Part shown: in pieces, positions 6,928 to 29,222 of the stretch
How the letters are laid out: every line of letters starts with the position of its first letter
Position numbering within the stretch: the first letter of the stretch is position 1
Virus record (IMG/VR): IMGVR_UViG_3300028883_000012
Coordinates: 1 to 47,199 of that record
From: a virus
Length of the DNA: 47,199 nt
Strand: one strand, 5' to 3'
Program-made: the position numbers and the translations under genes
The notes under the pieces: model-generated
Database searches by the model: none
The model's input: only the letters and a program-made list of their open reading frames with translations
Told to the model about the DNA's origin: nothing

Positions 6928-7134
6928 ATGTATTACGAAGAGAAAGTAATCAGGGGTGTCCTTAAGTTTAGGACAGAACCGCAAGGTAAATGGATGGTTG
7001 TGCCTGTATCAACACTAACTGTCTTATATGCTCAAGCTAAGGGTGAGATAGCTAGACTATCTGCATTGGTTGACTTACTTAATGACCAGTTAAATGACTA
7101 TGAGAATGGCAGAGATCCTCATTCAATAAGCTAA
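6928..7134 (+). CDS. Small early protein, 68 aa, probable coiled coil
   Basis: ATG two bases after the previous stop, with AGGAG upstream. An N-terminal basic beta part is followed by a leucine/alanine heptad-like helix (about residues 30-60), which would give a dimer. Not recognised. Confidence 0.6.
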   Translation: MYYEEKVIRGVLKFRTEPQGKWMVVPVSTLTVLYAQAKGEIARLSALVDLLNDQLNDYENGRDPHSIS

Positions 7135-10011: not shown

Positions 10012-10443
10012 ATGAGTCCCGAAGCAAAAGCAACTGTTGACAGTGATGCTTTGTTGGTCAATGTTGACCTCAACGCTATCCCTGACCAACCACCCTTTGA
10101 ACCTGGCGAGAAACTGTTGACTTTGAAAACAGTTGAGCTTGCCCCGTTCAACAAGAACCCTAAGGAAAATTTTGTCAAGATTGGCTTGGCTGTAGAGGAT
10201 GACCCCTACCCAGGTTATATCTTTGAGAATGTTATTCCACCCGCTTCTCACATGAGTGAGGCAGGTCAAAGATTCTGCAAGGAGAAATTCCTTGATTGGA
10301 TGACCTGTCTTGGTGTTGAGAAAACGGAAGCTGGTTACCAAGTTAAAGATGCTATCGGCAATTCCTTCTACGCCATGTGCGGTATCAAGGATGATGAATA
10401 CGGTAAGCGTCCAGTCGTAACCAAACTCCTCAAGCCAGTTTAA
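10012..10443 (+). CDS. Probable single-stranded DNA-binding protein (DUF669-like)
   Basis: 143 residues with AAAAGGAG upstream. An acidic N-terminus leads into a beta-rich body with a conserved-looking PF...N..EN..K.GL pattern, then a FCKEKFLDWM helix and a C-terminal strand, as in phage SSB-like proteins of the DUF669 type. Position directly after nuclease and ATPase genes supports this. C-ending codon bias suggests high expression, as expected for an SSB. No acidic C-terminal tail is present, unlike bacterial SSB. Homology is inferred by pattern and context only. Confidence 0.6.
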   Translation: MSPEAKATVDSDALLVNVDLNAIPDQPPFEPGEKLLTLKTVELAPFNKNPKENFVKIGLAVEDDPYPGYIFENVIPPASHMSEAGQRFCKEKFLDWMTCLGVEKTEAGYQVKDAIGNSFYAMCGIKDDEYGKRPVVTKLLKPV

Positions 10444-10470
10444 CTTCCGGTATTGTTAGACTGACTGGTT

Positions 10471-10627
10471 TCCCTAGTGGCGGAAAAGGTATACGCTAAA
10501 TTGTTGGTTATATAGGTAAAACACTAAGATATCTAGTGGGGTCAATCCACCCATCGCGGTTAGTATACAAGTGCCGTACTGGAATAAAGAAATGACCCAC
10601 CATGTAGGTTCGAGTCCTACCTAGGGA
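10471..10627 (+). ncRNA. tRNA-Leu-like RNA with an over-long middle
   Basis: The ends form a perfect 7-bp acceptor (TCCCTAG 10471-10477 with CTAGGGA 10621-10627). Next to the 5' strand lies a leucine-type D arm (TGGCG, an 11-nt loop with GG, CGCTA; 10478-10498). Next to the 3' strand is a perfect T arm (10604-10620, stem GTAGG/CCTAC, loop TTCGAGT). The element is 157 nt, about 70 longer than a tRNA-Leu, and no anticodon arm can be drawn. GTGGGGTC (10536-10543) can pair with GACCCAC (10594-10600) inside. It could be an intron-bearing or interrupted tRNA, or a tRNA mimic. No CCA is encoded. Confidence 0.6.
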
Positions 10628-10653
10628 ACGACACGTTATAACTCCTAACGTAT

Positions 10654-10773
10654 GGGAGATAGGTAATTGACAGTGTAGTTACTTAAAAGGTTTTAACAAG
10701 AAGTTCCTTTTATATGATTAACTATACTATATTAGTGTAACCAGCCCACCCTACCTATCTCCCTAAGGGTGGG
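10654..10773 (+). promoter_or_regulatory. Leader with two competing helices
   Basis: GGGAGATAGGTA (10654-10665) is perfectly complementary to TACCTATCTCCC (10752-10763). The latter forms the loop of a second hairpin, CCCACCCT (10745-10752) with AGGGTGGG (10766-10773). The interlocked order and short connection make simultaneous formation unlikely, so the two look like alternative states. The ribosome site of the next gene is 10 nt further on. A perfect TTGACA (10667-10672) also lies here, without a good -10. The rest of the 350-base gap holds no reading frame. Confidence 0.55.
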
Positions 10774-11419: not shown

Positions 11420-11512
11420 GTTATTTGAAATAGTACTACCGACACGAAAAGTTTAGACTTAATCCCCTTTTGGATCTTATGTGGGTAATCTAGGTCCGCT
11501 AATATCATAGTG

Positions 11513-18980: not shown

Positions 18981-20725
18981 TGAAAGAAAAAGTATTAGAC
19001 AAGTTAGGTAAAGCGTATGAGAAAGGACAACCTATAGTTAGTGATACTGACTATGATGCAATCGCTGAGGTTATTGGTAAACCTAATACTGTGTGGGAGA
19101 GTAAGGGAGATACTCGACACAAGATCTTTATGGGTAAGATTGCCAAGACAAATGATGATAAGGTTATAGAGTTAAGGTTTAATGATCCTGACTATATAGC
19201 CCAACCTAAGTTCGATGGTATATCTGCAGAAGTAGTATATAGAAACGGAGAGATAGTTCAAGTAACTACAAGGGGAGATGGGTTATATGGTATGGATATA
19301 ACTAAACACTTTAAGAAATGCACTCATGACCCAAGACCTTATTCTATGTGGTCAGGAATAGTGAGAGGAGAGCTTGTTATATCTTATAGAGAGATGGCAC
19401 ACTTTCCTGAATATAAGAACCCTCGTAATGCAGTAGCTGGTCTATACAATAGGAAGGCTGTAAGTCATAAACTTGAACACACAACCTTCCTTCCATACGA
19501 CAAGATACACGAGAATGGTTACATCTATACTCTTGACTACATGGAGTTGAGTAGCCTTAAGATGATACACCAAGTAATAAAGGATAGGCATTGGGCTAAC
19601 TTTCCTATTGATGGTATAGTATTCAAAGAACGTGGTAACATAAGATACAATGACCAAGGGATTAGAGAGAATTGTATTGCTTATAAGGAAGAACAACAAG
19701 CAGATAGTGCTTGGTCCTTTATTAAAGAAATTGAGTGGGATGTATCACGTCATGGTAAACTATCTCCCGTAGCAATCATTCAACCTGTAGATGTTGATGG
19801 TGTAACCGTATCTAGAGTAACACTCAATAGTGCAAAGTTTATAGAAACTAATAAGATTACTCTTGATAGCTTAGTTTGTATACAACGAGGTGGTGGGGTT
19901 ATACCTGAGATACTCTCAGTATACAATGATGAAGATGAGTATATACCTTATGTGCTACCCCAAGAATGTCCACACTGTGATAACTTTGTTCATAGAAAAG
20001 GAGCTAATCTGTTTTGTGGTAATGACTTTTGTATTGGCAAGGTTAAGTCATACATTGAATATGCAGCTAAGTCAGTTCTCAATATTAAGAATGTTGGAAA
20101 GGATAGCTTATATAATAGTTTTATCAGTGCCGTTAGAATAAACAGATATAATATCTTAGAGCTAGGTAAGGGTAACATATATGTTATGATTAACATATAC
20201 CTTAAGGAAGCATTTAATATTACTACACTAACAAGAGCACAAGCTATACTATTAGCTAACATAGAAGGTATAGGGTCTGGAACTGCTACTAAGATTGCAG
20301 ATGACACATCAGCATTAACCTTATATAAGTTTATTCAGTATGTAATAGACAATCATATCGTAGGAAATTCCGTTATATTTCGGGGTATATTTGCCATATA
20401 CGGCACGAAGATAGCCACACCCTGCCAAACCACACACAATAAAACGATTGTCATTACAGGGACTTTGCCCCTTGAACGAGATAAGGTTATAGTTAAACTT
20501 GATAAGTTAGGTATTAAAGTTAATGCCTCTGTATCATATAAGGTTGATGAGTTACTTGTTGGTGTTGAACCTGGAAAAACTAAAATAGAAAAAGCTACAA
20601 AATATCAGATACCTATTACAATAGTAGATAATGCGGATACCTTCGGGGATTGGTTAGAAGCTAATAAAATAAACCCAGATGATTTTTTTGATATCAATCC
20701 TAGTGTTGACTACGTAGATATTTAA
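18980..20725 (+). CDS. ligA: NAD+-dependent DNA ligase
   Basis: 581 residues, shorter than bacterial LigA (about 670). The adenylated lysine is K77 in QPKFDG, followed by TRGDG near residue 95. An OB-type region leads to a CPHC...CGNDFC zinc finger (about 330-355), helix-hairpin-helix repeats (IEGIGSGTA) and a C-terminal BRCT domain (about 490-570). The N-terminal NAD-binding part is reduced but keeps the SDTDYD motif. It seals nicks in phage DNA. The ATG overlaps the helicase stop. Its last 26 bases overlap the end of the opposite-strand giant gene. Confidence 0.92.
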   Translation: MKEKVLDKLGKAYEKGQPIVSDTDYDAIAEVIGKPNTVWESKGDTRHKIFMGKIAKTNDDKVIELRFNDPDYIAQPKFDGISAEVVYRNGEIVQVTTRGDGLYGMDITKHFKKCTHDPRPYSMWSGIVRGELVISYREMAHFPEYKNPRNAVAGLYNRKAVSHKLEHTTFLPYDKIHENGYIYTLDYMELSSLKMIHQVIKDRHWANFPIDGIVFKERGNIRYNDQGIRENCIAYKEEQQADSAWSFIKEIEWDVSRHGKLSPVAIIQPVDVDGVTVSRVTLNSAKFIETNKITLDSLVCIQRGGGVIPEILSVYNDEDEYIPYVLPQECPHCDNFVHRKGANLFCGNDFCIGKVKSYIEYAAKSVLNIKNVGKDSLYNSFISAVRINRYNILELGKGNIYVMINIYLKEAFNITTLTRAQAILLANIEGIGSGTATKIADDTSALTLYKFIQYVIDNHIVGNSVIFRGIFAIYGTKIATPCQTTHNKTIVITGTLPLERDKVIVKLDKLGIKVNASVSYKVDELLVGVEPGKTKIEKATKYQIPITIVDNADTFGDWLEANKINPDDFFDINPSVDYVDI

Positions 20726-23700
20726 GTGCTTCTTTATACTCATCATAGCCTTCTTTATCTTTATTATCCATTTGCCATCTTATATCATTAATAAGCTTAA
20801 GCATCCTTTTAATTCTTTTAGGGTTATAAGCCTTAGGTTCTCCGTTAGGTCCAATTTCTACCTCACTTGCTATCTTCACTATTTCCTGAATTTTATGAGA
20901 GGCTCTAATTTCTTCAGGCATTGTCTCATAAGCACTAAACAATAGGCTAAGAATAACTCCAACATAATTATTGGTCTCTCTAGATAGTATGTCAAGAGAT
21001 CTTTGTTTATCTATATCACCTGGTGCTCCTTCTACATAAGCTAATAAAGGTATAAGTCTTAGTGTCATGTATTTAGTAACCTGCATAAACTGGACATGAG
21101 GTGGTGCAAGTGGATCACTTACTGTATTATCATAGTTGTTATATGCCTCAAAGAGAACTCTCCATAGTGGGTGGAAATCAAACTGGAATGCTGTAAGAAA
21201 AGTTTTAAACTTATCTGTGTAGGTAGGGTCAAACATCTTCGAGAACTTACCAATATAATTCTGAACTAAGTTTGCGGGATGAGTAAATGTAATAACCATA
21301 TCCTTGTATCCAGTAGGTGTCTCAATCATACGTCTATATCTTCTACCCCATTCATCTCTCTTATAACCTAATCCAAGCATAAGCATATCAAAAGCTGAAT
21401 TAAGGACTAATATGTTAAGCACTGCTCGTGAGTTAATAACATCATGATACCCAACTTGGTTAGGATTTTTAATAGCCTTACCAATACTTCTAGCCATATC
21501 ACTATATAGCTTAATCATACTAATTCTAAAGGAAGGAGTAAAGAATATCCTATTCAATGCTCGTCTTACTTTAGGTGGAACATTAGCATAGTCTCCATGA
21601 TACAGTGCAGTATACTGTCCTGCCTGTTGTGTAGTATATCCAAGTTCAAGCAGTGCATTGAAAGACATCATTCTTAATACCTGATCTAGATGCCAAGCCG
21701 TCTCTTGTGAAGCATTGTATATCTCATTGATTAGTGCCATAGGTGTTTTAAGATAATTTAAAAACTTACCTTCACCAACCTTAGTAAGATTAGCTTTATT
21801 AAGAGAATAGGCAACTGAATAAACTATCTTACCTAAGATATTCTTATGAGCTTTGATAAAGTTCTGTGCCCATACTTGCTTAGGAACAATAGAAGGGGCT
21901 GACACACCACTATTAAGAACCATATCATAATAAACATCTGCCCTATACTCAACATCTTTCCATGCCTTAACAAAGCCTGGTAATGTAAGTGTGCCTAACA
22001 TATATGCTTGTACAGTATCATTAAGTGGTAACCTAAGTGGGTTAATAAAAACTTTATTCTTGGATGACCTTAATAATCTTTGGTATAGACCACGACTTGT
22101 TTCAGATGCTTCCTTAACTTCAAGTAGGTATTGTTTAATATCATTATGAATAGCAAGAAACTCAGACGTCGTTCCAACAGGTGCAATACCCCAATTGGTT
22201 ATAAAGTCTCTTCTTCTTATACGAGAAAAGTTCTCAGGTTTTTTGCTATCCTTAGTCTTGAGGTCTATGATTAATCCATCTTTAACAAACTGTTGAACTG
22301 CTGTGCCATAAGCAATAGTTTCGGCAGCATTAAAAGCCATAGATGCCATGATAACTGCATAAGATAAATTCTCAGCGTTAACTAATCCATGAGTTACTGC
22401 ATAGTCAAGTGTAGGTATACGTCTACTAATAGCCATACCCGCACTTTCTTTCTTAGGTAACTGTATGTTACTCTTACTACGTTCCTTTGATATAATGGAC
22501 TTAATAGTCTCACGTTGATATTTAATAAATGGTAGCTTATCATAAGGTGCATTAAGAGCCATCTGTAAAGCATAGATTTCCTCATCAGTAAGTTTCTTAC
22601 CTGAGTTATGTTTCTCAATAGCTGATTCAACCAAAGCATCATATCTCTTTACATATAACTTAACCATAGTCATGTTCATATAATTAAAGTTATCTATGTA
22701 AGAGTTTAGCTTTTCAAGATTGGTTATCTTTTTCTTAACTTTAGCTGCTTGGTCTTTAGTTAACTGCCCCGCTTTAAGACGTTCATTTAATCTTTCTATT
22801 GACTCTTTGTTCCTGGCTTTAAAAGCCTCAGCAAACCTACCATTAGGTAAACCACCCACTTCTTCCATCATAGTAGCTATGTTATCTACAGCTTCCACAT
22901 ACTTAGAATAGTTAGTCTTTATATATTCCTGAAGTGAGGTTGGTAGTTCTTTAAAGAGTTTAGTCTTAAGCATATCCTTTCTTTCAAACAAGAGAGGAGC
23001 TACCATATCAAATTTTATCTTATCCTGTTTAGATAATGACTTATAAATCTGCTTGTTAACTTTATCCAAGAACAATAAGTCTACCATGAACTTTTCAATA
23101 AGAGCATTCTGATGACTAGGTAAACTTTTAAGTGCAACTATACTACGTGAAGCAATGTTACGCAATCTGAAATCAAGTGACGTTGCTTCTTTAAATCTTT
23201 CAGTCATAAACTTAGCAATAGACGACAACTGCTTATTAATCTGAGCATACATATACATAATGTTATCATAGGATTGTTGTGGATGCTCACCTTGTAAAGC
23301 AAGAACACTACCAAGTCTGTTATTAAGGTCACGATAGTATGCATCTATATCATGTCTAACCTCTGCACTAACATGAAATCCAGACTCATGCTTGAGCAAT
23401 ATGTTATTCATGGTAAGAACTCTTAGAAAGAATTCAGCTCCTATCTTATCTAACTTAGGATCTGTAGGGTCTCCTTCAAAGATAAGTTTTTCAGCATCAA
23501 CTTCAGAGAAAGCTTTTGGTTCTATACTATCCCTAAACAGTTCATAGATTTCTTTCAGTGCCTGTTGCTGTTTCTTAGCATCATCAGATTTAAGGACTTT
23601 ATTACCTTCAACCTTAATATGTTTACTTTCATTCTCATTAACTTTTGCAAGTATCTTACCCGTTTTCGGATTACCTCTGGATAACATCTTGGCATAGACA

Positions 23701-26700
23701 GTCCTCATTGACTCACTTATTTCCATATCAGTATTAGATGCTATTGACTGGAAGATAGAGCCGAGCCATCCTCTTATCTTATTAAACAGTCCTCTCAAAC
23801 CATGAGCAGGTTCTTTCTCTGTCATAACATATTGAATAAAACCATTAGCAAATTTCTTATCTGCCTCAGGTGTCCATACACCTTTCTTTACACCACACCA
23901 GTTTTCAGCAATATCAATATCAGTATTAGTTATACCCGCTCTATTCTCAGGTTTAACTTTCTTATTTAAAAGTCTACGTCTTGCAACAATAGCATGAGTG
24001 AATAAACCAGAAGAGAAGTTAGCATCTTTGAAACCTCTAAGAATTGTAGTGCCGTCGCCTAACAGTTCAACGGCACTAATGGTTACACCATTGGATAGTT
24101 GAAAGACAGCAGTTCCTTGGGTTGTCCCTTTACTGGCATACTTGATATCTCCAGTATCCATACCCAAAGCTCTAGTTACTGAGGCAAGTGTATGAGCCTG
24201 GTCTTCAGTTAAGTTATATGTCTTCTGCAATACTGAAACTGCATAATCATAAGTTGGACCAGTTACCTCAAGATCAGATACTTGAGTAGCTTCTATGGAA
24301 TTACTTATAGATAACTCACGAAGTTTCTTAATGGCTTCTTCTTTAGACTTACCTAAGATAACATCAGTATCTTTATCATACCAATACTTACCTTTAGCAT
24401 TCTCAGCTATTGTATACTCAACACCATCTATCTCTCCTTTAAAGACATTAGCATCAACGGGCTTAGCTTTCTTTAAATTCTCTTTGATGAAAGTAGAACC
24501 TAAAGTCTCAGCAAAATAGTGGTCCACTGCTTTATTAATCTGGTCAAGAGCTGTATAGTAATTAGGGTTAATATTAATAATATGTTTTAAAATCTCTTTA
24601 AGCCGTGTGAATACAGACTTTGTTTTACCTTTACCTTGATAAGGAGTCTTTAGTAAATAATCAGCAAAAGCTACATTAGTGAAAGCATAAGTAATAAGCT
24701 CTTCATAAAAAGGAACATAGTCTCCAGTATCTGGGTCCATAACTAACTTAGCATTGGTTGCCCCATCAATAGCTTTTAGTATTTCAGCTACCTCTTCAGG
24801 CACACCCTTCTCAGTTTGCTTCATTATATGGTTAAAGATTTTCTTGAGTTCCACATTCAGCTTTGTTCTTTCCCTACCATCAAGGTCAGCTATTTCAATA
24901 ATACCATGTATAACTTCATGATGAATAGCTCGTAAATATTCAGCCTCACTATCATACTCAAAAACAGGGTAGACTGTGATAGCATCAGTATCAGGATTAT
25001 ACATACCTTCAGCATCTTTAACTCTACGTAAACGAGCAACAGCTTTCTTAGATACATCTAGTTTAATTTTTGTGTTCCTGATTAGGTTGTAAAAACTATT
25101 ATAGATAGCTTTAGTTTTATCTGATGTAATACCTTCAACAAACTCAATAACAGGTATGTTCTCTTCCCCATACTTTTTAACTAACTCAGAGATAGTAGCT
25201 CTAACACCTAAAGCTCCATCAGAAGTAAGGCTAAGAAACTTCTTCATAGATGGGTCTTCAAGACTGGTATCTTCTACCTTCTGTCCTTTCTTGGCATAAA
25301 CAATATTCTCATTAGTCATGACAAGATCTTTATTCATAGCTAATTCTTGGAAATTATTTAATACCTGAACAAGAGTATTCCCTACATTAATTTTAGAAGC
25401 ACCTTCTATATTACCCGCTTCAGTAATAGTTTGTGCTACAAAGTTATAGAGACTTGTATAACCACTCTTTTCTATATCTCCTTCATAAGGAATAGTAGCT
25501 AGAAATCTAGCAAAGTCAGGGTCAGATAAAGCCCAAGCGGCAAACTCTTCAAAACCTTCACCTTTATTGTAGGCATCTATAGTAGCACTTAGGCTTGTAA
25601 GAACTTTCTCAAGATGGATACCGTTTCTAGCCATTAACATTCTAAAACCTAGATTGTTTTTATTTGTCTCATAAACATCTACAGCTAGGTCAGTTAATTT
25701 TTTAAGGTTAATCTCAAGATACTCTCTAGCCTCTTTATTTGTTGTTACTAAAGTAGAGTGAACAAGTTCATGAACAATATCAAAAAGGTATTTATTACCA
25801 GGTCTTAGACTTGGCTTTTTAAGTATAATACTAACACTGTCTACATACCGAAGCATTGTAGTTTGAGCCACTTCTTCTTGCTCCATACCCTTTACAGAAG
25901 ACAATGCTTTTACTTCATCTTTTAAAAGAGCTACCCTATCATCACTGAGGTCAAAGTAGTCTGTGACAGATGAGGCATAAATAAGTAGATCTGTATATAC
26001 TGTCTGAGCATTAGGACTTAACATTGCTCTTAAGAATACATAAGTAGGAACGTGAGCAGTCCCATCTTCTGCATTATAATATATTCCTTTCAAGGCAAAA
26101 TATATGTCATCAGGAGTTAATCCTTCAATAGAGTTATTAAGTATAGTATCGTCTGTTAATACTTGGTCACTAACAGCAAACTCACCCTCATTCTCTATAC
26201 TATGAATAAGATATTTAAGAACCTTAATCTTATCAGCAAGTAACTCTCTCCGTATCTCTGGAGTTGTTTCATCAAGGGCAGCATAGTCAATAGATAAGTC
26301 ACGTAGTTTTTCTAGTAGGGCCCCCTGAGTTTCATTCACATTGGCTCGCTCAGAAACCTTCCTTACTCTTAATGAATACACACCATTCTCTAAATCCTTG
26401 TTAAGTTTCTTAACCCTAAACTCTAGCATATTAACCTTATCTTGCATAGTATCAATCTGAGGTTTATACTTCTGTTTGATAAGGTCAATCTTCACACCCT
26501 TCTCAATATTAGTATAAGATGAAGCACGATTAATAGCATTGATTTCGTCTTTCATCTTAGCTTCAAGGGATGCAATCTTATCCTTTAGTTTAGATCTTTT
26601 CTCAAGAAACCCTAACATTTCATCTTCAATAGTTTCACGAGGAATATGCTGAACCTCAAGTTTTCTCTCTTCGAGTTTACCTAAGACACGTTTCTCTTGC

Positions 26701-29222
26701 TCAGCTAATTTTTCTTTTTCTCCCTTCTCATTTGTCGGAGCTTTAGTCTCTTCAATAGGTATAGCTTGTGCAGAAGTTTCTTCGGTAACAATAGCTTCAG
26801 CTGTTTCATTTTGTTTTACCTCAGACTTTACTTTAGCTTTAGTCCCCGCCTTCTTAGGTTTTACTGGAACATTAGGTTTTTTGGGGGAAGTAGTCTCTTC
26901 CTTTTCTTGAACTAAAATATTACCCTTAGCATCAACAGGAGAAAACTCTTTGGTAACCTTACCATACTCTTTTTGTATACGTGCTATCTTAGTTTCAAGA
27001 GCCTCAGACATTTTAGGCCGTTTACCAGGTCTAAATACATAACTACCATTCTTGTATGCTTTAAAAGATTGGGATTTAAAGAAACTATTAATAGAGTTCT
27101 CTGCAGCTTTAGTTGAATTGATACCACTGATTGTAAACTGCACACCTAGGTTGTCAGCTATATTCTTCATGTAAGCTAAGTTAAGAAGTATCTGTTGTTT
27201 GTTTCTATTATTGATACTGACTTCAGTAACTACAAGTTGATTAGGTTTACTTGTATCTAACTTCATGTCAATACCATTAAGATTAATAGTATCAGCATTC
27301 TTTGTTGGTTTACCAGAAGCTTTAATAACAGAAACAGCTCTTGCAGTTCTCTGCTCAGCTGTGCCTATGGTAGTATCAGGTATAGTAATCTTACCTTCTG
27401 TAAGTTCATCCTTAATAGAATTTTGAATAGCTTTATTCCTGGCACCGAATGAAGGAGATGCAAGAAAAGTAACAAGAAGTCTTTTATAAACTTCAGTATC
27501 AGATAGCCTACCATCTATATCAATCTTTGTGTTATCACGAACTAATTGAATAAGGTTATCTCGTTTAGTATCTGCCCTACTCATATATAAGTCAATAATA
27601 CCATCCAGTGTTTGAACTTTCTTTACAGCTTCGGTAGCTGACTCTGGAGATTTATCAAGGTTTGTCTCTTCTGAAATACCCAAGAACTCATTAAGTGAAA
27701 TACCCAAGCTTGAAGATAACATAGAAGCTAATTTAAGTCTGCCCCTATAATATTCTCTGTTAGTTTTTGTTGTGCTATGCAACAATAAGGTATTGATGAT
27801 ATCATTATCTGCATCTTTAGGTCTGAACTTAACTTTTAAATAATCTAGTTCTTCTTTATTCAGGATACTATTAAATATCTTAGAGTTTAAAAATTCTTGC
27901 CATGCCCTACGCTTTACCAAATCCTTGTTAGCCTCATACCACTTTAACATGGTATCTAAATCTTTATCATTAACCTTTAGGATATCAATAGTTTCTTGAT
28001 CTTGAATAGTATCATATATGAATTGGGTTGCTCCTAAGGCGTCAGCCTGAGTCAGCTGCTTCTCATACATGAGGTGAGAAGCAAGCTGAATGTGTGGGTC
28101 ATTCATAGAAGATACAGTGCCTGTAATACCACTAGGCAAACCTATCATTATACCACCGACAAAGCCCTGAACAAAACCTTTTCCAAGTCCTTCGCCAATT
28201 CTTTGTCTTTCATCTACAAGAAGTTTAGTGTTTACATTATTTAAGAAACCTTCAACAACTTCCTCAAGACCTTCTTCTGTGGCTTGACCTGTAATATGAA
28301 TACCAACATTATACAACAAACCTGCTATTGCTTTAGAAGCTAGCTTATACTCTTTATTGGCTAGTTGCTTAGCAATAGTCTTACCTGATGTGCTTAACAA
28401 AGACTCTGTTAAACCTTTTGCCATACCTAGTGTAAGCTTACCACCTACATACTCAGTAGCAAAGGTAAAAATACCTGACATAAGAGCTGTAAAAGTTTCA
28501 GCCTCTTTACTGATAGGTTCAAGACCTTGACCTGCTCTAACAAGGTTCTGTTCCAAAACCCTAATGCGTTGGTTACCTGCAGATTGTAATGCTCCAAGAC
28601 CTGTCTGAACATAGAACAAGGCTGTTGCTAATGGGGCACCTGCGCCCGTAGCCGTAAGAGTAGCTGCGACTGCCATAGGTGCAACATTACCCGCTATGTG
28701 CATAAGTTCTTGCCACTTCTTATCTTCGTCATGAGGTTTAAGATACATGAGATCTAACATATCAAGACGTCCCTCTTCAGGGTCAGCAAGAGCAGTCATA
28801 CCAACAGCACGCTCACCTATAAGTCCTTTATAGAAAGCATTCCATGCAGTCTCTTCACCTCTGTCTACATACCTCATCAAGAATTCGGGATAGTCTTCAT
28901 CAGATTTGTTCTTAGATTTTGACCAATCTTCAAAGACCATGCGACGAAAATCCTCATTAGTATTCATCTCAGAATCAAAAGCGTCATAATTTTCTACATT
29001 AAAGTCAGAACGTCTTTGCCAATACTGTTCAGTTTGACCAGTATAAAACTTAACAAATTCTTCATAGTCATTAGTCTCTTTATACTTATCCTTAAGCTCT
29101 TTAAAGGTTGCCATACGCACACCTTCTTGAGACTTAAATGCCTCATAATAATCGGCTGGGTTATCATATACACCTAGACCATTGACTAAACCAAATACTT
29201 TTTCATTGAGTGTGATAGGCAC
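20700..29222 (-). CDS. Giant polyvalent ejection-type virion protein, 2840 aa
   Basis: One frame of 8.5 kb from a GTG after AAGGA. It has a soluble N-terminus, a Gly/Ala-rich hydrophobic stretch (about 170-370), a Lys/Glu coiled coil (about 840-960), then two separate HExxH metallopeptidase-like motifs: HELVH near residue 1152 and HEVIH near 1434. A segment like those seen in large polyvalent proteins (about 1760-1850) and an LPD38-like C-terminal block (about 2490-2570) follow. Such proteins are carried in the head and injected with DNA, where the enzymes act on the cell wall or host proteins. It is the last gene of the late operon. No RNA polymerase motif was seen, so it is not an N4-type virion polymerase. 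Confidence 0.75.
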   Translation of the reverse strand: MPITLNEKVFGLVNGLGVYDNPADYYEAFKSQEGVRMATFKELKDKYKETNDYEEFVKFYTGQTEQYWQRRSDFNVENYDAFDSEMNTNEDFRRMVFEDWSKSKNKSDEDYPEFLMRYVDRGEETAWNAFYKGLIGERAVGMTALADPEEGRLDMLDLMYLKPHDEDKKWQELMHIAGNVAPMAVAATLTATGAGAPLATALFYVQTGLGALQSAGNQRIRVLEQNLVRAGQGLEPISKEAETFTALMSGIFTFATEYVGGKLTLGMAKGLTESLLSTSGKTIAKQLANKEYKLASKAIAGLLYNVGIHITGQATEEGLEEVVEGFLNNVNTKLLVDERQRIGEGLGKGFVQGFVGGIMIGLPSGITGTVSSMNDPHIQLASHLMYEKQLTQADALGATQFIYDTIQDQETIDILKVNDKDLDTMLKWYEANKDLVKRRAWQEFLNSKIFNSILNKEELDYLKVKFRPKDADNDIINTLLLHSTTKTNREYYRGRLKLASMLSSSLGISLNEFLGISEETNLDKSPESATEAVKKVQTLDGIIDLYMSRADTKRDNLIQLVRDNTKIDIDGRLSDTEVYKRLLVTFLASPSFGARNKAIQNSIKDELTEGKITIPDTTIGTAEQRTARAVSVIKASGKPTKNADTINLNGIDMKLDTSKPNQLVVTEVSINNRNKQQILLNLAYMKNIADNLGVQFTISGINSTKAAENSINSFFKSQSFKAYKNGSYVFRPGKRPKMSEALETKIARIQKEYGKVTKEFSPVDAKGNILVQEKEETTSPKKPNVPVKPKKAGTKAKVKSEVKQNETAEAIVTEETSAQAIPIEETKAPTNEKGEKEKLAEQEKRVLGKLEERKLEVQHIPRETIEDEMLGFLEKRSKLKDKIASLEAKMKDEINAINRASSYTNIEKGVKIDLIKQKYKPQIDTMQDKVNMLEFRVKKLNKDLENGVYSLRVRKVSERANVNETQGALLEKLRDLSIDYAALDETTPEIRRELLADKIKVLKYLIHSIENEGEFAVSDQVLTDDTILNNSIEGLTPDDIYFALKGIYYNAEDGTAHVPTYVFLRAMLSPNAQTVYTDLLIYASSVTDYFDLSDDRVALLKDEVKALSSVKGMEQEEVAQTTMLRYVDSVSIILKKPSLRPGNKYLFDIVHELVHSTLVTTNKEAREYLEINLKKLTDLAVDVYETNKNNLGFRMLMARNGIHLEKVLTSLSATIDAYNKGEGFEEFAAWALSDPDFARFLATIPYEGDIEKSGYTSLYNFVAQTITEAGNIEGASKINVGNTLVQVLNNFQELAMNKDLVMTNENIVYAKKGQKVEDTSLEDPSMKKFLSLTSDGALGVRATISELVKKYGEENIPVIEFVEGITSDKTKAIYNSFYNLIRNTKIKLDVSKKAVARLRRVKDAEGMYNPDTDAITVYPVFEYDSEAEYLRAIHHEVIHGIIEIADLDGRERTKLNVELKKIFNHIMKQTEKGVPEEVAEILKAIDGATNAKLVMDPDTGDYVPFYEELITYAFTNVAFADYLLKTPYQGKGKTKSVFTRLKEILKHIININPNYYTALDQINKAVDHYFAETLGSTFIKENLKKAKPVDANVFKGEIDGVEYTIAENAKGKYWYDKDTDVILGKSKEEAIKKLRELSISNSIEATQVSDLEVTGPTYDYAVSVLQKTYNLTEDQAHTLASVTRALGMDTGDIKYASKGTTQGTAVFQLSNGVTISAVELLGDGTTILRGFKDANFSSGLFTHAIVARRRLLNKKVKPENRAGITNTDIDIAENWCGVKKGVWTPEADKKFANGFIQYVMTEKEPAHGLRGLFNKIRGWLGSIFQSIASNTDMEISESMRTVYAKMLSRGNPKTGKILAKVNENESKHIKVEGNKVLKSDDAKKQQQALKEIYELFRDSIEPKAFSEVDAEKLIFEGDPTDPKLDKIGAEFFLRVLTMNNILLKHESGFHVSAEVRHDIDAYYRDLNNRLGSVLALQGEHPQQSYDNIMYMYAQINKQLSSIAKFMTERFKEATSLDFRLRNIASRSIVALKSLPSHQNALIEKFMVDLLFLDKVNKQIYKSLSKQDKIKFDMVAPLLFERKDMLKTKLFKELPTSLQEYIKTNYSKYVEAVDNIATMMEEVGGLPNGRFAEAFKARNKESIERLNERLKAGQLTKDQAAKVKKKITNLEKLNSYIDNFNYMNMTMVKLYVKRYDALVESAIEKHNSGKKLTDEEIYALQMALNAPYDKLPFIKYQRETIKSIISKERSKSNIQLPKKESAGMAISRRIPTLDYAVTHGLVNAENLSYAVIMASMAFNAAETIAYGTAVQQFVKDGLIIDLKTKDSKKPENFSRIRRRDFITNWGIAPVGTTSEFLAIHNDIKQYLLEVKEASETSRGLYQRLLRSSKNKVFINPLRLPLNDTVQAYMLGTLTLPGFVKAWKDVEYRADVYYDMVLNSGVSAPSIVPKQVWAQNFIKAHKNILGKIVYSVAYSLNKANLTKVGEGKFLNYLKTPMALINEIYNASQETAWHLDQVLRMMSFNALLELGYTTQQAGQYTALYHGDYANVPPKVRRALNRIFFTPSFRISMIKLYSDMARSIGKAIKNPNQVGYHDVINSRAVLNILVLNSAFDMLMLGLGYKRDEWGRRYRRMIETPTGYKDMVITFTHPANLVQNYIGKFSKMFDPTYTDKFKTFLTAFQFDFHPLWRVLFEAYNNYDNTVSDPLAPPHVQFMQVTKYMTLRLIPLLAYVEGAPGDIDKQRSLDILSRETNNYVGVILSLLFSAYETMPEEIRASHKIQEIVKIASEVEIGPNGEPKAYNPKRIKRMLKLINDIRWQMDNKDKEGYDEYKEALKYLRSQH

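Follow-up and report, generated by a model that had tools for sequence, protein, structure and literature searches.

A tRNA-Leu-like element with a large middle domain in place of its anticodon arm in a 47-kb virus record, and a probable class of similar phage elements: candidate leucylatable tRNA mimics

Introduction

The tRNA-like structures of plant viruses such as TYMV and BMV are located at the 3' end of RNA genomes, and in TYMV a pseudoknot builds the acceptor arm. In E. coli, tRNA-Leu can still be charged with leucine after loss of its anticodon and variable arms; charging needs A73 and contacts between the D and T loops, with A15-U48, G18G19 and A20a essential in the hinge, while the anticodon arm is dispensable for aminoacylation but required for editing (PMC9976931). 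Phage tRNAs counter tRNA-targeting defences (PMC10264068, PMC11555353). As for inserts, the phage group I introns known in 2014 were all located in protein genes, according to a review of that year (PMC3984707).

Here we describe a tRNA-Leu-like element in a 47-kb virus record (the window, i.e. the whole stretch of 47,199 nucleotides that was analysed), and compare it with similar elements in phages.

Results

The element and its arms

The window carries genes for terminase, portal, major head protein, polymerase, primase and ligase. On its minus strand a single ORF of 2840 aa occupies 20700-29222. The tRNA-like element covers 158 nt (10471-10628, plus strand) between a 143-aa ORF, which ends at 10443, and the next gene, which starts at about 10796 (Table 1). 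A preliminary description had placed the arms of a tRNA-Leu, in tRNA order, within 157 nt (10471-10627), with halves too far apart and no anticodon arm that could be drawn. The acceptor stem pairs at 7 of 7 positions, the D arm is of leucine type and the T arm, with TTCGAGT, is canonical, thereby confirming the arms and their order; all of them lie within that extent, but the discriminator A lies one base further, at 10628. The spacing between D and T stems is 107 nt, where tRNA-Leu has about 32, and no anticodon arm could be drawn in our analysis either. By the rules reviewed in PMC9976931 the leucine identity set is present in the sequence (A73, A15-U48, G18G19, A20a, U54, A58).

Table 1. 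Features of the tRNA-Leu-like element, in window positions
Feature	Position	Strand	Basis or remark
Acceptor stem, 5' strand, TCCCTAG	10471-10477	+	7/7 pairs with 10621-10627; relatives show covariation in this stem
U8 G9 and leucine-type D arm GCG-GAAAAGGTATA-CGC (A14 A15, G18 G19, A20a)	10478-10496	+	Sequence; D arm proper 10480-10496
Middle domain, 107 nt, replacing anticodon arm and variable region; last base U48 (10603)	10497-10603	+	Anticodon arm not rebuildable
Possible displaced hairpin CACTA-AGATATC-TAGTG, 5 bp, 7-nt loop, no U33	10522-10538	+	MFE and centroid
Proposed helix B, 5' strand, GTGGG(G)TCA	10536-10544	+	Helix B class-wide
Alternative helix B, 5' strand, GGGTCA, compatible with the 10522-10538 hairpin	10539-10544	+	
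Proposed helix B, 3' strand, TGACCCAC, 3 nt before T stem	10593-10600	+	Position matches relatives' helices
T arm GTAGG-TTCGAGT-CCTAC	10604-10620	+	Sequence; Infernal
Acceptor stem, 3' strand, CTAGGGA	10621-10627	+	Sequence
Discriminator A73; CCA not encoded, CGA next	10628	+	Sequence

The preliminary description had proposed ARAGORN and Infernal as checks, and these were run. With Infernal, all 71 positions of the Rfam tRNA model aligned to 10471-10628 around an 88-nt gap in the middle, so that the element was recovered end to end; the score of 28.3 bits is just below the gathering score of 29 (E 5e-4 in a 361-nt search). ARAGORN missed the element and called in the window a tRNA-Ile at 11512 as the only other RNA gene. 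With introns allowed, ARAGORN labelled the element 'tRNA-Ser gga', a call that looks spurious, being forced by that setting. A tmRNA-like rescue RNA that carries leucine in place of alanine would share the plan of a tRNA end fused to a pseudoknotted domain, as may be inferred from the anatomy of the class described below. However, neither Rfam nor ARAGORN gave a tmRNA match, the acceptor pair 3-70 is C-G and not G-U, and no constant tag frame was visible in the hypervariable middles of the class. The D stem of tmRNA is not intact, whereas that of the element is. We consider a tmRNA-like RNA scarcely credible here.

Both the MFE and the centroid fold of the element retain the acceptor, D and T stems, and its total folding energy is ordinary (z -1.2). 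In the middle domain, a candidate helix B (8 bp, one bulge) stops 3 nt short of the T stem (p ~0.1 taken alone). Helix B and a pseudoknot in the window itself are put forward as a hypothesis; an alternative pairing together with a separate 5-bp hairpin fits the MFE. Just downstream of the element, at 10654-10773, a perfect 12-nt inverted repeat (GGGAGATAGGTA at 10654, TACCTATCTCCC at 10752) is interleaved with CCCACCC (10745) and GGGTGGG (10767). The fold of this region has a z of -2.0, and it is possibly a switch or a second structured RNA.

Similar elements in phages

BLAST of the whole element against 50,697 phages gave no match, and several leads that it gave in named phages proved to be ordinary tRNA-Leu. 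Neither the DNA polymerase of the window nor the gene downstream of the element had a close relative among the viral contigs searched, no match was obtained with a pattern of CGCTAA plus a long spacer, and no close relative of the window's middle was found. By polymerase, the nearest named phage was Desulfofustis phage LS06-2018-MD01 (33% identity), in whose genome (L355) the detector described below found no element.

Relatives were obtained with a pattern consisting of a leucine D arm, a spacer longer than that of any normal tRNA-Leu and a T arm, the acceptor being left out. It gave at least 120 viral stretches, and at least about 100 non-redundant phage elements share the arms; these counts come from the matches listed or from the strict pattern and are not estimates of abundance. 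Among the matches listed, the acceptor was paired at 7 of 7 positions in 90 of the 128 that could be scored, as against a mean of 10.6% and a maximum of 17% with permuted partners, and many acceptor positions showed at least four pair types. The fully paired acceptor stems comprised 53 different sequences, so the covariation in relatives that had been suggested as a check was indeed seen. Both strands of 6.2 Mb were also scanned with a detector that requires an acceptor stem and widely spaced D and T arms. It gave 153 matches, a minority of them cyanobacterial inserts or tandem normal tRNAs, and none in the same sequences reversed, thereby excluding chance at the level of the class. The exact 20-mer of the window's D arm recurs in two other viral contigs, in elements that have different, perfectly or almost perfectly closing acceptors and lack a normal anticodon arm.

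Two positions that the pattern did not set were also retained. Among the matches listed, U48 was present in 88 of 90 relatives, and A73 in 70 of 90 (38 of 53 when one was taken per acceptor), 20 of the 90 being without it. As read from the sequences, U48 and A73 together with A15, G18G19, A20a and the T loop are the bacterial leucine identity set. A tRNA-Leu pseudogene, decayed and enlarged by insertion, would lack an anticodon arm and could score just under the Rfam tRNA threshold, as the element does. Such decay is hard to reconcile with three perfect arms in the window, with the fully paired and diverse acceptors of the relatives or with the retained U48 and A73, and we regard it as very improbable. 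Taken together, the tRNA-Leu-like RNAs very probably form a real class.

A 41-kb phage (G001; L357 6184-11207) carries about 11 elements whose middles differ; all of these have U48 and 10 have A73. They accompany a near-complete set of 25 tRNAs called by ARAGORN that includes two ordinary tRNA-Leu. Two near-identical duplicates are located at 6992 and 7525 of L357. Elements were also found in the cultured Leuconostoc phage phiLM33_01 (L360; PV780767, at about 40310), in a spring-water podovirus (L361) and in bacterial genome contigs, those of Riemerella, Paenibacillus and Dyadobacter among them. Their middles are hypervariable: neither sequence nor length (about 45-110 nt) is constant, even where the acceptor AGTCAGG is shared.

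Some individual elements deserve mention. In L223, L487, L488 and L489 the element and its upstream 10 nt are identical and the sequence differs directly 3' between two contig pairs, as if the element were a recombination junction. In L135, L142, L162, L206 and L219 the middle holds an apparent second, nested tRNA-like T arm or D arm. In L002:735-920, L071:7436-7590 and L110 (minus strand) a second insert lies inside the T loop, T54[GACTATACGAG...CTCG], the removal of which would give back TTCAAAT or TGCAAAT.

Pairing within the middle domain

We checked 91 non-redundant elements for a helix whose 3' strand ends at a fixed distance from the T stem, against shuffles that ignore relatedness. With the end exactly 2 nt before the T stem, at least five Watson-Crick pairs were found in 33 of 91 elements as compared to 8.5 in shuffles, and at least six in 20 as compared to 2.5. 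Enrichment was also seen for ends at 3 and 4 nt from the T stem; at 0, 5 and 6 nt there was none, or hardly any. A first, loose test allowing the helix anywhere in the last 14 nt had shown weak enrichment, which became strong with the fixed register, and a duplex-energy version was weak (10% of elements at p<=0.05). This register is the site of the 3' strand of a long variable arm. By a simple rule, the best partner helix crosses helix B, giving a pseudoknot, in 25 of the 52 elements with helix B and is nested in 16. In one subtype (L062, L223, L132) the A helix GAGTA/TACTC is kept while helix B is fully replaced with its pairing preserved, as GGCACGC/GCGTGCC, GAGCTTT/AAAGCTC and GTTGTAAT/ATTACAGC.

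These data bear on the main rival explanation, an RNA-processing or stability module in which RNase P or RNase Z would cut at the tRNA-like ends and so separate or protect adjacent phage transcripts, the middle being filler that varies freely. Constant ends around hypervariable middles would suit it. So would the location of the elements between small genes, often shortly upstream of a start codon, with flanking genes mostly co-oriented with them (44 both forward, 5 both reverse); we looked for a recurrent partner protein beside the elements and found none. Co-orientation, however, is also seen for ordinary phage tRNAs, and filler is unlikely to keep the register of helix B, subtype-specific covariation, A73 and U48. 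We judge such a module unlikely.

The intron question

The preliminary description had offered three readings: a new type of intron, a tRNA with an added domain, or a tRNA mimic. The latter two fit the class evidence. For the first, in which an insert of about 70 nt would be spliced out to leave a normal tRNA-Leu, all single excisions tried on the window element failed to restore an anticodon arm, and an Rfam search of 10400-10760 up to E 10 returned the tRNA and a chance sRNA with no intron family. Among Leu-type relatives, an arm with any anticodon could be rebuilt in 12% as compared to 4.8% in shuffles, and one with a Leu anticodon in 6 of 99 (6%) as compared to 0.5%; L073, L236 and L032 look like genuine intron-bearing tRNA-Leu. 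The excision test has power, because in class-I tRNAs with long spacers a perfect anticodon arm was rebuilt in 46% of 46 cases as compared to 1.2% in shuffles, and tiny anticodon-stem inserts do exist in other phage tRNAs. Ordinary tRNA-Leu genes are already present in phages rich in elements, and since G001 has two of them an extra, spliced one would be pointless there. An intron is therefore improbable as the explanation of the element.

The pattern with a class-I D arm found long-spacer tRNAs with other D arms, many of them rebuildable inserts, and exclusivity for leucine was accordingly rejected. Phage tRNAs for Asn, Phe, Ile, Thr and others (L431, L422, L427, L391, L387, L370, L405, L426, L385, L479, L397, L435) have their anticodon stem interrupted in its 5' strand by about 40-55 inserted nt, and the exon ends rebuild a perfect anticodon arm; many of the phage anticodon-stem inserts share an ACAGCAA or GTTACTT motif. 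In cyanobacterial tRNA arrays (L354, L269, L247, L295) nearly every tRNA has a similar insert of about 45-55 nt in the anticodon region (..GGGCCGAAGAAT..). The phage inserts of about 50 nt are a separate phenomenon, possibly a tiny intron type.

Other unusual genes were noted. Two tRNA-like genes of 203-205 nt in Aquimarina (L251:1443, L257:2361) have D arms of the TAGCTCAAAGGGAAGAGC type and resemble each other in an insert of about 150 nt. In Erwinia phage Asesino, the 121-nt gene annotated as 'tRNA-Ile(aat)' (L493:989-1109) encodes a long tRNA-like RNA that lacks a normal anticodon arm; upstream of it (504-633) lies a second one, unannotated. L057 (minus strand) has a 73-nt tRNA with a leucine-type D arm and anticodon TCA, a possible opal suppressor.

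Discussion

The best explanation of the element, in our view, is a decoding-incompetent and probably leucylatable mimic of tRNA-Leu with a role away from the codon, decoy activity included; for this statement as a whole, belief and doubt are evenly balanced. The RNA would be trimmed like a tRNA by RNase P, receive its CCA by addition and fold into a tRNA elbow. It could then be charged by the leucyl-tRNA synthetase of the host, an enzyme for which exactly the retained parts are required and the anticodon arm is not. Since that arm is dispensable for aminoacylation, the part replaced is the one that the synthetase can do without for charging. The larger folded domain in its place, often a putative H-type pseudoknot in the class, would leave no usable anticodon. 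Once charged, the RNA might act off the codon, most likely by occupying or diverting tRNA-handling proteins, e.g. as a decoy for defences that attack tRNA. By analogy with phage tRNAs, the mimics may counter such defences, but the decoy purpose is the least certain step, which we infer only. Long-middle elements with non-Leu D arms exist, and leucine may therefore be irrelevant to some RNAs of this kind.

A wider proposal, which we make tentatively and hold to be somewhat doubtful, is that phages widely encode leucine-charged, codon-blind mimics with a pseudoknot for an anticodon arm, several different copies being present in some genomes, and that these intercept or feed tRNA-dependent processes (defence nucleases, users of aminoacyl-tRNA) instead of decoding. 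From its sequences this family of tRNA imitators looks widespread and is apparently undescribed; we found no description of such a phage class in the open-access full-text literature, where absence is no proof that none exists.

If the mimic reading is true, evolution has given DNA phages a natural equivalent of their own to the plant-virus tRNA-like structures, with leucine as the identity used since its synthetase can dispense with the anticodon. This reading would account for many phage tRNA calls that are 'undetermined' or mis-typed, might be relevant to RNAs C and D of T4, long without an explanation, and offers concrete tests, namely charging and decoy activity, of why phages carry tRNA-like genes. 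The inserts of about 50 nt in the anticodon stems of phage and cyanobacterial tRNAs may, for their part, be a separate and very small type of intron.

Comparison with known systems

Group I introns of bacterial tRNA genes are likewise inserts in a tRNA gene, but they are far larger, leave a complete tRNA and are detectable with Rfam (PMC3984707). tmRNA (SsrA) shares with the element a tRNA end and, with the class, pseudoknots that are putative here; its alanine identity, degenerate D arm and tag frame were not found in the element. The tRNA-like structures of TYMV and BMV are also viral imitators of tRNA, pseudoknotted as the class is often proposed to be, whereas here the gene belongs to a DNA phage, the acceptor stem is normal and the fold lies in the anticodon domain. 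Stable RNA C of T4 (species 1, rnaC, AF158101) lies in a phage tRNA cluster and resembles the element in its perfect 3' T arm and large middle. The T4 stretch starting 19 nt upstream of the annotated start of rnaC can form acceptor-like, variable-arm-like and T helices (z -3.85), the variable-arm-like helix being placed just before the T arm. It differs from the element in having no clear leucine D arm and an ambiguous acceptor partner, which lies either ahead of the annotated start or within the RNA itself.

The canonical bacterial tRNA-Leu (Rfam RF00005, type II) shares with the element the acceptor stem, the D arm with A14 A15 G18 G19 A20a, U48, the T arm and A73, and differs from it in having an anticodon arm and about 32 nt, not 107, between D and T stems. 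In the minimal tRNA-Leu constructs of E. coli (Larkin 2002, reviewed in PMC9976931), the remaining parts match the identity elements retained here. Those constructs are laboratory truncations, whereas the natural phage RNA adds a domain for the missing arms.
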